64,000 bases of DNA from Crossiella equi (GTDB lineage Bacteria > Actinomycetota > Actinomycetes > Mycobacteriales > Pseudonocardiaceae), in NCBI RefSeq assembly GCF_017876755.1, contig NZ_JAGIOO010000001.1:3705786-3769785 (forward strand), written 5' to 3'. The stretch's first letter is position 1. Every line of letters starts with the position of its first letter. Positions 1,837-28,348 of the stretch are shown piece after piece. The translations under genes were made by a program, and so were the position numbers. The notes under the pieces are model-generated. The model saw only the letters and a program-made list of their open reading frames with translations, did not search any database and had not been told where the DNA came from.

Positions 1837-2271
1837 GTGAGCACAGCCCGACCGGCCGACAGCCCCACCGAGTGGGTGCGGGCGCACATCGACCGCTACG
1901 TGGCCACCGCGGGCGCGGACGGGCACGACTGGCAGGGCACCACGACCCTGCTGCTCACCACCACCGGCAGGCGCACCGGGGTGCCCCGGCGGACCGCGCT
2001 GATCTACCAGCGGGACGGCGCGGACTACGTGGTGGTGGCCGCCCAGGGCGGGGCGCCCGCGCACCCCGCCTGGTACCTGAACCTGACCGCGCACCCCGAG
2101 GTGGCCGTGCAGGTGGGCGGCGAGAAGTTCACCGCCCGCGCCCGCACCGCCACCGCCGCCGAACGCGCCCGCCTGTGGCCGGTGATGACCGGTGCCTGGC
2201 CGGACTACGCGGAGTACCAGCGGCGGACCAGCCGGGAGATCCCGGTCGTCCTGCTGTCCCCGGCGGCCTAG
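1837..2271 (+). CDS. F420-dependent nitroreductase/oxidoreductase family protein
   Basis: A 144-residue single-domain protein of the deazaflavin (F420)-dependent nitroreductase family (Ddn-like, split beta-barrel). Members bind reduced F420 and reduce varied small molecules; the substrate here cannot be read. Family hallmarks are the core GRRTGVPRRTALIY (about 48-61) and the segment around PAWYLNLTAHPEV (about 81-93), which contribute to the cofactor site in characterised relatives. The length is typical. The GTG start lies 6 nt after TACCTT, a -10-like hexamer, and there is no convincing Shine-Dalgarno, so the mRNA is probably leaderless. It converges with the phosphotransferase at 3064, across the large palindrome. 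Confidence 0.85.
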   Translation: MSTARPADSPTEWVRAHIDRYVATAGADGHDWQGTTTLLLTTTGRRTGVPRRTALIYQRDGADYVVVAAQGGAPAHPAWYLNLTAHPEVAVQVGGEKFTARARTATAAERARLWPVMTGAWPDYAEYQRRTSREIPVVLLSPAA

Positions 2272-2395
2272 AGAGTTTTCACCGTGGGTGTTGAGCCCTC
2301 CGGACGGCGTTACCCCGGGCACGAACGGCTCGGACGGCCCTCCCTAGCCTGACGGTTCGCGCGGCCTGCCCCGGTAGCCCTCAGGGTTCATGCGG

Positions 2396-2518
2396 CCTGA
2401 CCAGAAACCCCACGACTCGTGCGACCAGACCAGGCAACCCCACGACTCGTACGGCCAGACCAGAAAACCCCACGACTCGTACGGCCAGACCAGGAAAACC
2501 ACGACTCGTGCGGCCTCA
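2396..2518. repeat. Left array of 30-bp repeats
   Basis: Four contiguous units of about 30 bp, each carrying CACGACTCGT, of which CACGA-C-TCGTG is an 11-bp palindrome, followed by a conserved RCCAGACCAG. Spacing is 30, 30 and 29 bp. There are no unique spacers, which excludes CRISPR. It is mirrored by the array at 2875-2998. Confidence 0.85.
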
Positions 2519-2524
2519 CTAGGC

Positions 2525-2642
2525 GTGTTGGCCGTGTGGGTACCTCGTGTTGGCACGGAGAGGACGGCCGGTTCCCCCAGGCCGAAGGCCGCAGGGGCGG
2601 CCTCCACGCAGGGCCAACACGAGGTACCCACACGGCCAACAC
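2525..2642. repeat. 118-bp hairpin module, left copy
   Basis: Begins with two GTGTTGGC words 22 bp apart (2525, 2547) and ends with two GCCAACAC words 22 bp apart (2613, 2635), so the ends can pair. GTACCTC and GAGGTAC next to the inner words extend the pairing. The 58-bp interior matches the reverse complement of the interior of module 2751-2868. Confidence 0.85.
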
Positions 2643-2750
2643 GCCCGGCCCGGGGGCGGAACGGCGAAGCCGTAAGCCCGGAGCAACCCATCAACACCCC
2701 GCGGCGTTACCCCGAGCTCACGGCTCCGCCGTCTCGCCCACCAGCCGGGC

Positions 2751-2868
2751 GTGTTGGCCGGTCCGGTACCTCGTGTTGGCCCTCCAGGGAGGGCCGCCCC
2801 TTCAGCCTTCGGCCTCGGGGAAAGGCCGTCCCCTCCGTGCCAACACGAGGTACCGGCCCGGCCAACAC
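2751..2868. repeat. 118-bp hairpin module, right inverted copy
   Basis: Same architecture and length as 2525-2642 in the opposite orientation: GTGTTGGC at 2751 and 2773, GCCAACAC at 2839 and 2861. Equal length and equal loop size point to duplication with inversion, or to gene conversion between the arms. Confidence 0.85.
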
Positions 2869-2874
2869 GCCTAG

Positions 2875-2998
2875 TCAGGCCGCACGAGCAGTGGGGTTGC
2901 CTGGTCAGGCCGCACGAGCAGTGGGGTTGCCTGGTCAGGCCACACGAGTCGTGAGGTTTTCTGGTCAGGCCGCACGAACCGTCCAGTGCACCCGGTAA
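2875..2998. repeat. Right array of 30-bp repeats, inverted
   Basis: Four 30-bp units in the opposite orientation to 2396-2518. The first two are identical (CTGGTCAGGCCGCACGAGCA type) and the last is the most diverged. Unit positions are symmetric with the left array about 2696.5-2697. Confidence 0.85.
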
Positions 2999-3063
2999 GG
3001 CCGTTCGAAAGCCAGCTGTCCGGGAGCGGCCGCTCGACAGGGAACACCCACAACGAAAACCCG

Positions 3064-4110
3064 CTAGCTGCCGGGACCGGTCAGCAGGCGGTGCACCGCC
3101 GCCTGGTGCGTCGGGTCCAGCAGGTCGAACCGGTCCACCAGCCCGGGCCCGCGCCGGTGCTCCAGCAGCACCTGACGGACCAGCGCGACCAGCGGCGGGA
3201 CCGTGGTGGCCAGCAGCACCGGCATGAGGTGCCGCTCCTGCCCGTCGGCGAGCAGGCCGTGCCGGTGCGCCAGGTCCAGGAACAGGGCCAGCGCACGGCG
3301 TCGCGCGGTCTCGCCCACGCGCACCCGGGCCGCGGTGTCGGCCAGCGCGGCCAGGTCCAGCAGGCGGTCGCCCGCGTGCAGCGCGCCGAAGTCCTCCACC
3401 GCCAGCACCTGCGGGTCGCGGCCGCCGGAGAGCTGGAACTGGCCGGTGCGCAGGCTGCCGTGCACCACCGCCGGTTGGTGCGGCGGCAGCGGGGTGGCCA
3501 GCAGCGGTACCGCCGCCAGCGCCCCGCGCAGCATGGCCGCGCAGGCCCGGGACCAGTCGTCGGCGCGGCTGTTCGCCAGGGGCAGCAGGTCGGCCGCCTC
3601 GGCCAGGGCCTGCCGCCAGCACGGCCGGGGGCAGGGCAGCGCGGCCAGGCCGGTGACCAGGTGCGGCGGCAGCCCGTCCAGCGTGGCACGCAGGGCGAGC
3701 CCGGTCCGGATCACCGCCGCGGTCTGCTCCGGGCCCGGGTGGAACGGCACCGCGGCGCGCACCACCGGGGTCAGCTCGCAGGCGAGGTCCTCCCGCCAGG
3801 CGACCGTGCCGCCGTCGGTGGTGGGCACCGGGTCGGGCACGGGCAGGCCCCGGCGCCGGCAGTGCGCGAGCACCTGCTGGCGCAACGGGAACAGGTCCGG
3901 GTGCACGCGCTCCTCCGGGCCGAGCCGGACGCGCAGCACGTGCGGGGCGGCCTTGGCGTGCACGAGCCAGGTGCCCTCGGTCTTGCGGCCCTGCCAGTCG
4001 GCCACGGGATGCAGCGGTGCGCGGGACCACTCGGGGCCCCAGCCGCGGTCGAGCACCGAACGGACCCAGTCCACGTCGATGCGGGTACGGGCAACGGTCT
4101 TCTGGGGCAC
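3064..4110 (-). CDS. Phosphotransferase family protein (APH/choline kinase fold)
   Basis: About 348 residues resembling aminoglycoside phosphotransferase-fold kinases, which phosphorylate small hydroxylated substrates. Visible elements are AVVHGSLRTGQFQL (catalytic-loop position, but HGSLRTGQ where active kinases usually have HGDLxxxN) and VLAVEDFGALHAGDRLLDLA (usual IDW/FExAxxGDPxxDLA). Both key acidic/amide positions look altered, so activity is uncertain. I chose GTG 4110 because GGAGG sits 5 nt upstream; ATG 4125 is an in-frame alternative with a worse ribosome site. It is divergent from the EccC-like gene. Nothing shows whether it gives antibiotic resistance. Confidence 0.7.
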   Translation of the reverse strand: MPQKTVARTRIDVDWVRSVLDRGWGPEWSRAPLHPVADWQGRKTEGTWLVHAKAAPHVLRVRLGPEERVHPDLFPLRQQVLAHCRRRGLPVPDPVPTTDGGTVAWREDLACELTPVVRAAVPFHPGPEQTAAVIRTGLALRATLDGLPPHLVTGLAALPCPRPCWRQALAEAADLLPLANSRADDWSRACAAMLRGALAAVPLLATPLPPHQPAVVHGSLRTGQFQLSGGRDPQVLAVEDFGALHAGDRLLDLAALADTAARVRVGETARRRALALFLDLAHRHGLLADGQERHLMPVLLATTVPPLVALVRQVLLEHRRGPGLVDRFDLLDPTHQAAVHRLLTGPGS

Positions 4111-4325
4111 ACTCGCCTCCGCCATGTGCGCTTGCGTGGAACGCGGCCCCCGAATGGCGGATACGGGGGATGCCGCACCAGTCTGACGGCCGGGACCGCG
4201 GTTGGCCATACGCGGGAAGACCGATGTCTTCTCCGCCGAACGGGCGTCGCCGACCGGCCCGGTGCGCCAGTATGGGCAGCAGCGGTGAGAGCGCTCCATT
4301 GTGGACTGGCTTGAGGGGGAACGAG

Positions 4326-27089: not shown

Positions 27090-27104
27090 ACCCTGCCCCG
27101 CTCG

Positions 27105-27298
27105 GCCAACACGAGGTACGCCGACGGCCAACACGAGGTACGCCGACGGCCAACACGGGGTACGAAACCGGCCAACACGAGGTACGAGGACGGCCAACAC
27201 GAGGTACGAGACGGGCCAACACGCCGACGGAGGGCAAACCCCGGGCGTGTTGGCCGCTCCTGCACGCCGTGTTGGCCGGGCGCGTACCTCGTGTTGGC
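27105..27298. repeat. Phased 22-bp repeat array, direct then inverted
   Basis: Six GCCAACAC words start at 27105, 27127, 27149, 27171, 27193 and 27215, exactly 22 bp apart; the first five continue as GAGGTAC or GGGGTAC. Three mirror copies (GTGTTGGC) end at 27254, 27276 and 27298, again 22 bp apart. The word and period are those of the modules at 2525-2868. The two halves can fold into a long hairpin. The array lies between convergent genes; open frames across it are artefacts. Confidence 0.88.
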
Positions 27299-27393
27299 CG
27301 TTCCGGTCGGGTGTCTTGGTTGGTGCGGTTGGGATTCGGGAGGCGGGCGTGGTGTGGCGCCGGAGGCGACACCCCCGCCAACACCTGGCCGTT

Positions 27394-27489
27394 GTGTTTT
27401 TCGCGTGACCTTGCCGCGGCCTCGACACGCCGAAGCTTGCTTCGCGCGTGACGAGGCCGCGGCGAGGTCACTCCCCCAGCGAAAAACAC
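27394..27489. repeat. Long imperfect inverted repeat
   Basis: Two arms of about 45 bp (GTGTTTTTCGC...TGACCT..GCCGCGGCCTCG and its complement) with a tiny loop near 27438. The outer ends are an A/T run facing both ways, as in a bidirectional terminator. It lies 22 bp downstream of the methyltransferase stop and close to the 22-bp array. It may be a terminator or a MITE-like remnant. Confidence 0.75.
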
Positions 27490-27511
27490 CCGCGCGCGGA
27501 GCGCGCCAATG

Positions 27512-28348
27512 TCACAGCACCTTCGGTCGGGCGGTGAAGACCCTGGCCGAGCCAAGGCCCGTGGTGCCGTGCAGCTCCAGACCCTGGGCACGGGCCGCGG
27601 TCGCGATCTCGGCCCACGAGTTGTCCGGCGCGAAGGTGCCGTCCTGCTGGCTCCAGCGGTGGTAGGCCCGCGACAGCCTGTTCCCGTCGGTGGTGAGCGT
27701 GCTGACCGCGATCTGGCCGTCCTCGCGCACCACGCGCCGGAGCTCGCCGAAGACCGCGGGCTTGTCGTGGAAGCAGTGGAGGCCGAACATCGAGACCGCC
27801 CCCGCCACTCCTCCGTCCACAATGGGCAGTGCGCAGGCGTCCGCGCGGATGACCAGGTGCTTGCGCAGGCCCAGCTGTTCGATCTTGGTCGCCAGCTGGC
27901 GCAGCAGGTGCCAGGACAGGTCGGCGAAGATCCACGGGCCGCGGGAGCGGTAGCCCGGGGCGGCGCGCAGCAGCGGGCCGTTGCCCGCCGGGATCTCCAG
28001 GACCGGACCGTCCGGCAGGCCCGCGATGCGCGCGCCCATCTCCCGGTAGTAGCGGTCCACGTCCAGGCCCAGCAGCCAGGAGTCCAGCTTCTGCCGGGTG
28101 GGGCTGCCCATCAGCCAGCCGTAGAGCTTCGCGTTCCAGCCCTCGTACGGTTTGTCACCGGCAGAAACCGGACCGGAAGAATTGGCGACGAGGTCGAGAA
28201 CACCATCGACAAATGGCGCCACATGTGGACAGGAATCGCAGTCGAGTCCGCGCGAGGCGATACGCAGAGAGGGCACTGAACAGGCCGGACACCGCAGCAG
28301 CGGAACCAGCTCGGCCAACGCGCCCCGATCAATGGACACAGCCGTCAT
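27512..28348 (-). CDS. SAM-dependent methyltransferase with N-terminal Zn-ribbon-like segment
   Basis: 278 residues. The N-terminus carries LLRCPACSVPSL and LDCDSCPH, a four-Cys pattern like the zinc knuckle of RlmA-type rRNA guanine methyltransferases. The Rossmann core has motif I VLEIPAGNGPLLRA, IFADLSWHLLRQ, and a later VSMFGLHCFHD. It may methylate rRNA or a small metabolite; the neighbours (oxoamine synthase, acyltransferase) make a biosynthetic role plausible. ATG 28348 has GGGAAGG upstream. It is divergent from the flavin-binding gene. Confidence 0.8.
   Translation of the reverse strand: MTAVSIDRGALAELVPLLRCPACSVPSLRIASRGLDCDSCPHVAPFVDGVLDLVANSSGPVSAGDKPYEGWNAKLYGWLMGSPTRQKLDSWLLGLDVDRYYREMGARIAGLPDGPVLEIPAGNGPLLRAAPGYRSRGPWIFADLSWHLLRQLATKIEQLGLRKHLVIRADACALPIVDGGVAGAVSMFGLHCFHDKPAVFGELRRVVREDGQIAVSTLTTDGNRLSRAYHRWSQQDGTFAPDNSWAEIATAARAQGLELHGTTGLGSARVFTARPKVL

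Follow-up and report, generated by a model that had tools for sequence, protein, structure and literature searches.

A CTAG-bounded palindromic element at gene ends in Crossiella equi, probably an IS5-type miniature transposable element

The window, by which we mean the whole 64,000-nucleotide stretch of Crossiella equi DNA analyzed here, contains two convergent genes separated by a large palindromic structure (Table 1). Genes were called with a codon-usage gene finder trained on the window and are not taken from annotation. The gene finder calls no gene in 2272–3063, where open frames such as 2390–2998 are present mechanically, and the region lies between convergent genes; both points agree with the original proposal. 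Alignment of 2346–3008 to its own reverse complement gives a score of 342, compared to a maximum of 52 for 100 mononucleotide shuffles, which bears out the nested palindrome of about 660 bp that had been recognized there. The inverted pairs 2499–2576/2817–2894, 2594–2687/2706–2799 and 2412–2500/2894–2982 are centered at 2696.5–2697, in agreement with the predicted symmetry about 2696.5 to within 1 bp, and tandem repeat analysis (TRF) recovers the 30-bp arrays expected on both sides. The two hairpin modules also exist, and words spaced 22 bp apart are seen in both of them, but with the new borders each module is 124 bp long and not 118 bp. The borders of the structure itself had been drawn too narrowly. 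An alignment of 22 copies with their flanks reveals sharp ends at 2268 and 3067, and the palindrome at 2346–3008 is the inner portion of an 800-bp unit whose CTAG-bounded inverted ends had been missed. As the flanking genes stop exactly at 2271 and 3064, the element fills the entire gap. The claim that the whole intergenic gap is one mirror-symmetric structure therefore holds in that gap and element coincide, but not for the outer inverted ends, which are centered at approximately 2667.5, about one 30-bp unit off the inner symmetry.

Table 1 Features of the element, its flanking genes and a separate array of 22-bp words. Positions are those of the window.
Feature	Position	Strand	Remarks
Flanking gene, F420H(2)-dependent quinone reductase	1837–2271	+	PF04075, 3.7e-47; stop in left CTAG
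Whole element	2268–3067	+	One of 26 copies; order CTAG, inverted end, 30-bp array, two hairpin modules with linker, 30-bp array, inverted end, CTAG; 22-copy alignment, 26 copies bounded
Left boundary CTAG	2268–2271	+	TAG is the stop codon of the + strand gene
Left terminal inverted repeat	2272–2292	+	About 21 bp, imperfect; consensus AGAGTTTTCGCCGTGGGTGTT
Left array	2391–2515	+	30-bp units, 4.2 copies (TRF)
Internal CTAG, left border of hairpin block	2519–2522		Equivalent site in copy L145 holds an IS
Hairpin module 1	2522–2645		124 bp; stem with paired 22-bp words; predicted RNA MFE –105 / –108 kcal/mol on the two strands (folded 2518–2649)
Central linker	2646–2747		Has its own inverted repeats; like solo repeats at gene 3′ ends elsewhere
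Hairpin module 2	2748–2871		124 bp; stem with paired 22-bp words; predicted RNA MFE –102 / –106 kcal/mol on the two strands (folded 2744–2875)
Right array	2869–2977	+	30-bp units, 3.6 copies (TRF); inverted relative to left array
Internal CTAG, right border of hairpin block	2871–2874		Equivalent site in copy L137 holds an IS
Right terminal inverted repeat	3043–3063	–	Consensus read inward AGGGTTTTCGCTGTGGGTGTT
Right boundary CTAG	3064–3067	–	Minus-strand TAG is the stop codon of the – strand gene
Flanking convergent gene	3064–4125	–	No Pfam match at 0.001; stop in right CTAG
Separate two-armed array of 22-bp words	27103–27299		Six forward and three reverse words; between convergent genes; not a copy of the element; one of many

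A search of the 9.44-Mb C. equi genome with 2346–3008 returns 125 matching pieces, and 26 dispersed copies with unrelated flanks could be bounded. The copies were gathered by similarity to the one in the window, so that very diverged copies may be absent from the 26. Scanning the genome for the terminal inverted repeat with at most three mismatches gives 47 places, all of them at the 26 copies; both ends are recovered in 21 copies and one end in the other five. Twenty copies are 535–854 bp long, two are short (276 and 282 bp) and two carry an insertion sequence (IS; 1645 and 1731 bp), while no right end was placed for copies L143 and L148. The original prediction proposed that symmetric copies elsewhere between convergent genes would support a functional family, and such copies do exist: the flanking genes are convergent at 17 of the 26. 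The two short copies, L133 and L136 (positions 2849740–2850015 and 4290602–4290883 of the C. equi genome, G000), have no hairpin block and share the same internal junction in opposite orientations, which looks like a deletion derivative that was itself copied.

The element is absent in all 12 comparisons of three insertion sites with four congeneric genomes (G001–G004). In ten of these the genes are directly adjacent and in two they are separated by arrays of 22-bp words. At the locus in the window none of the four congeners has the element, and the same convergent genes end in TGA stops 1–4 bp apart. The L137 site likewise lacks the element in all four. At the L131 site, G003 and G004 have the two genes side by side, and G001 and G002 have arrays of 22-bp-type words in the gap. 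Nine of 16 listed insertion sites were searched in the congeners; both flanks were usable for two, which together with the window locus make up the comparison, and the other seven had one usable flank or changed neighbors. The four congeners gave no hit to the terminal repeat, and 99 other genomes gave only four isolated hits with three mismatches, the level of a reversed-pattern control. There was no match in the plasmid and phage collections (blastn, E 1e-5), and no Rfam model matched at its gathering score anywhere in the window. No publication on this element was recognized by title or abstract start among the matches listed. Long palindromes are prone to misassembly, but the 26 copies in different contexts and the absence of the element at three orthologous sites in four congeners make an assembly artefact or a collapsed repeat extremely unlikely. 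The inverted ends, the dispersed copies and the orthologous absence point to a mobile element, a possibility that did not enter the earlier reading of the locus, and the mobile nature of the element is well supported.

CTAG is present at both placed ends in 14 of the 26 copies and at one or both ends in 25, the remainder being near variants or an unplaced end. The boundary coincides exactly with a stop codon on the left in 17 copies and on the right in 13; at least one boundary does so in 24 and both in 6. The word at these stop-codon boundaries is CTAG, with TTAG in three of them. CTAG is itself scarce in this genome. The window has 27 where 155 are expected, none of them inside called genes, and a 464-kb sample (the window plus 20 stretches of G000; 89% coding) has 114 where 1156 are expected, a roughly tenfold depletion. 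The 114 are mostly intergenic or at stops: 10 lie inside genes, 33 coincide with stop codons and 5 with convergent stops that overlap. Compared to this baseline (33/114 at stops), which covers the window as well as stretches containing three other copies and is therefore slightly enriched for CTAGs of the element, the occupancy of stop codons by the copies is higher than expected (p 2e-11).

Since CTAG is depleted and rare within genes, an element that targets CTAG meets gene ends, which is a safe way to insert, and CTAG targeting largely explains the gene-end setting. The setting of CTAG stop codons itself is well supported. As stop-site occupancy exceeds the share of CTAGs found at stops, it is likely that insertions elsewhere were purged or that there is an additional preference. 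Duplication of CTAG on insertion, if it occurs, would let both flanking genes keep their stops. Because the target sequence is constant, such a duplication is not fully separable from a CTAG that forms part of the element end, and the boundary CTAGs could belong to the element instead. A CTAG stop without the element is found at two orthologous gene ends, namely that of the right-hand gene of L136 in three congeners and that of the left-hand gene of L147 in G004. The congeners use TGA at the window locus, which thus gives no support for a pre-existing CTAG there.

The two IS-carrying copies, L145 and L137, hold an identical 931-bp IS, inserted in each case at one of the internal CTAGs flanking the hairpin block. 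This IS is of the IS5 type, has DUF4096 and DDE_Tnp_1 domains and occurs in 11 full copies with 100% identity, all of them flanked by CTAG. Seven of the nine IS copies that lie outside the element touch a gene stop and three touch two (p 0.003 against the CTAG baseline). Among 29 relatives in other genomes, 20 have no clear ends and seven of the nine that could be placed have CTAG at both ends, including L295, in which the right edge is one base out, and L297, which has a short span of 737 bp. Of the other two placed relatives, L294 has a left edge that coincides with the end of its contig, and in L300 the left side reads TTAG and the right end is implausible. IS5 is described, in the part of the work drawn on here, as duplicating YTAR, most often CTAG (PMC5493358). 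Because the ends of the element differ from those of the 931-bp IS, the IS is a parallel and not a proven partner. The element itself, having no called gene, is without a DDE transposase of the IS4/5 type; the separate inserted IS has one. The scan for an autonomous element with the same ends matched nothing in the C. equi genome other than the 26 copies, and we therefore infer the mobilizer. Other DUF4096 genes were considered as autonomous partners and rejected, as the inverted repeats near three further loci are unlike the ends of the element.

The copies have a pronounced polarity with respect to replication. The dnaA gene is located at 4.84 Mb; 12 of 13 copies to the left of it are on the + strand and all 13 to the right are on the – strand. 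Relative to the fork, 25 of the 26 copies follow the rule (p 8e-7), with one of the two short copies as the exception, so that the polarity is 24/24 without these and 1/2 among them. The replication polarity of the element is well supported. GC skew was rejected as evidence for the replichores as single 20-kb stretches vary in sign, and dnaA and gene strand were used as the basis instead: in 20 evenly spaced stretches, 61% of the coding bases are on the – strand to the left of dnaA and 71% on the + strand to the right. The terminus was assumed to be near the contig ends, which is consistent with the orientation switch at dnaA. Seven solo repeats of the linker type all lean with the replichore as well, but those inspected lie near gene 3′ ends and their direction may be explained by that of the genes. 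According to parts of a review (PMC5371812), replication-oriented insertion is found for Tn7 TnsE, IS200/IS605 and several beta clamp-binding IS families.

Polarity could also arise after insertion, if transposition placed the element and later selection, acting on asymmetric termination or replication conflict, set its orientation. One of the two copies that lack the interior breaks the rule, and the 10 of 11 IS copies with the same polarity, although significant against one half (p 0.012), give just p 0.07 against the baseline of 66% co-directional coding bases. The orientation rule is, however, the same in tandem and convergent contexts, and the IS copies, which are identical and presumably recent, lean the same way. 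In addition, the two IS within the element are at mirror-image targets, and they are oriented according to the replichore, irrespective of the target sequence. We therefore regard later selection as a possible but somewhat unlikely source of the polarity. A REP/BIME-like or IS200/IS605-derived element that is moved as single-stranded DNA by a Y1 transposase would also explain the polarity, and the element is indeed palindromic, extragenic and fork-polar. Against this, Y1_Tnp (PF01797) has no match in the genome, compared to matches in 5 of 14 control genomes, and inverted ends with CTAG on both sides fit a DDE element. Mobilization by an IS200/IS605 or RAYT enzyme was rejected on the absence of Y1_Tnp from the genome, and Y1-dependent origin in general is highly improbable.

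In the interior of the element, each module is predicted to fold into a hairpin with a stem of more than 30 bp and an MFE of –102 to –108 kcal/mol. Among 24 copies, the four stem arms have mean pairwise identities of 1.000, 0.966, 0.973 and 0.991, the loops of modules 1 and 2 have values of 0.958 and 0.857, and the linker has 0.947. For the arrays the identity is 0.871 and 0.884, for the outer parts 0.882 and 0.801, and for the terminal repeats 0.877 and 0.800. That the stems are 97–100% identical, compared to 80–88% for the terminal repeats, suggests a retained function. Changes in the stems are few (one double, four broken and two single-sided), and selection on structure as such is therefore not demonstrated. 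Covariation was set aside as evidence for RNA structure, there being too few stem changes in copies that were picked by exact words and are thus biased towards intact stems.

Two further explanations bear on this pattern of conservation. Recurrent gene conversion among palindromic copies might keep the hairpins alike in the absence of any function. Exchange between modules is indicated by copy L127, in which an arm of module 1 is of the module 2 type, and the module 1 loop and the linker nearly match the arms in identity. Conversion alone does not readily explain why the arms are more alike than the module 2 loop, the arrays and the ends, and as the sole cause it is conceivable, though we would not expect it. 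Alternatively, the structure may be a resident functional element, such as a nucleoid-protein site or a replication-polar site, held in place and orientation by selection and not by transposition. The hyperconservation of the stems relative to the ends would agree with this, as would the loss of strict polarity in the short copies without a hairpin block and the occurrence of the 22-bp words in three congeners, with a strict 22-bp period here. The sharp inverted-repeat ends, the exact CTAG stops, the orthologous sites without the element and the restriction of the terminal repeats to one of five congeneric genomes make a resident element improbable. The original prediction had attributed the conserved layout to selection or recent gene conversion. 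For the layout as a whole, copying of one unit is the better account; for the hairpin modules the proposal is still plausible, with stems far more conserved than ends.

The 22-bp stem word GGCCAACACGNNGTACNNNNNN also forms separate arrays across the genome. There are 135 adjacent word pairs in C. equi, 94, 32, 4 and 0 in the four congeners, and none in 55 genomes from outside the genus. In a 400-kb sample, the spacing of words within 120 bp of each other is solely 22, 44 or 66 bp. A gene 3′ end lies within 2–121 bp of 23 of 24 such arrays (a 5′ end is nearer in two), and the same is seen in the congeners, with 10 of 10 arrays within 78 bp of a 3′ end in G003 and 8 of 10 within 64 bp in G002. 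Repeats similar to the linker and to the 30-bp units also lie close to the 3′ ends of other genes, which gives the element the appearance of a transposable assembly of sequences typical of gene ends. A search of 2200–3150 for U-tailed terminators had no hit, and no sigma-70-like promoters were found. From its position and predicted fold, the most likely function of the interior would be bidirectional transcript termination or insulation of 3′ ends.

Several additional repeats of these types were noted. Beside the array at 27103–27299, an inverted repeat seen by eye at 27395–27495 consists of GTGACCTTGCCGCGGCCTCG ... CGAGGCCGCGGCGAGGTCAC, with TTTTTCGC / GCGAAAAA outside it, and lies just before the gene at 27512–28222. 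GC-rich hairpins like the central linker are found near gene 3′ ends at G000 positions 763826 (L276), 1776038 (L277), 4338215 (L279), 9002400 (L282), 9039874 (L280) and 9108736 (L281), several of them beside units of the GTGCGGCCGCACGAG type. In the congeners, the 22-bp units (L086, L095, L272 and L315 in G002; L233 in G001) tend to match exactly close to the inner end of an arm and to become degenerate towards the outside. Their spacer letters differ from those in G000, which suggests concerted evolution.

Taken together, the palindrome is probably one copy of a non-autonomous, IS5-type miniature transposable element (MITE). What is observed consists of 26 copies with the same inverted ends, the boundary CTAGs, the stop codons, the absence from orthologous sites and the orientation. 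We envisage that an IS5-type DDE transposase, now absent or diverged, moved the element into CTAG. Insertion would have produced a second CTAG, leaving a TAG stop to each of two convergent genes that had shared a single CTAG, and coupling to a passing fork would set the orientation. The payload of gene-3′-end repeats would form two very stable hairpins, at which transcripts arriving from either side would be terminated or blocked. Such a barrier could make an intergenic insertion harmless or even useful, and the hairpins would be kept while the mobile ends decay.

A bolder extension of the MITE reading is a mobile terminator cassette, which would use stop codons as safe landing sites, take its orientation from the fork and place a ready-made hairpin barrier, effective in both directions, between genes that used to overlap or abut; the host would retain the hairpins by selection while the ends rot, and the 22-bp words, which occur in most of the genus, would be a carried signal. 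We put this forward tentatively and consider it rather unlikely. A transposon-like element would here avoid harm through a tetranucleotide that is kept mostly outside genes and at stops. Insertions that have DDE-type ends are oriented with replication, and the cargo is intact while the mobile parts decay. A single genome offers 26 natural replicates of this, together with 11 copies of an independent IS.

The element shares features with several known systems. Like intrinsic terminators, it has GC-rich hairpins at gene ends, in both directions. It differs from them in having no U tract and in its stems of more than 30 bp within a composite array, and its terminator activity is a prediction. REP/BIME sequences, as portrayed in part of the source (PMC1525189), are also palindromic and extragenic, often lie between convergent genes and are targets of IS. 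REPs are given there as 21–65 bases long, compared to the 800-bp unit described here, which has transposon-like ends and CTAG boundaries in a genome without a Y1 gene. With Tn7 TnsE, IS200/IS605 and beta clamp-binding IS, in so far as they are covered in the review excerpts (PMC5371812), the element has in common that orientation follows the direction of replication; the polar element in C. equi is, however, non-coding and has DDE-type ends, and the genome has no Y1 gene. The CTAG/YTAR target is the same as that of E. coli IS5 (PMC5493358), but the CTAGs are here mostly stop codons, often of convergent genes, whereas the portion of the IS5 paper used here treats insertion at regulatory sites. 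The closest likeness is to the MITEs of IS5-type IS, with which the element shares terminal inverted repeats, CTAG boundaries, the absence of a called gene, many dispersed copies and absence from orthologous sites. At up to 854 bp it is large for a MITE, and its larger, strongly palindromic interior resembles gene-3′-end repeats. It is further set apart from IS5-type MITEs in that no partner IS with the same ends was found, its orientation is nearly fixed and its boundary CTAGs are stop codons.
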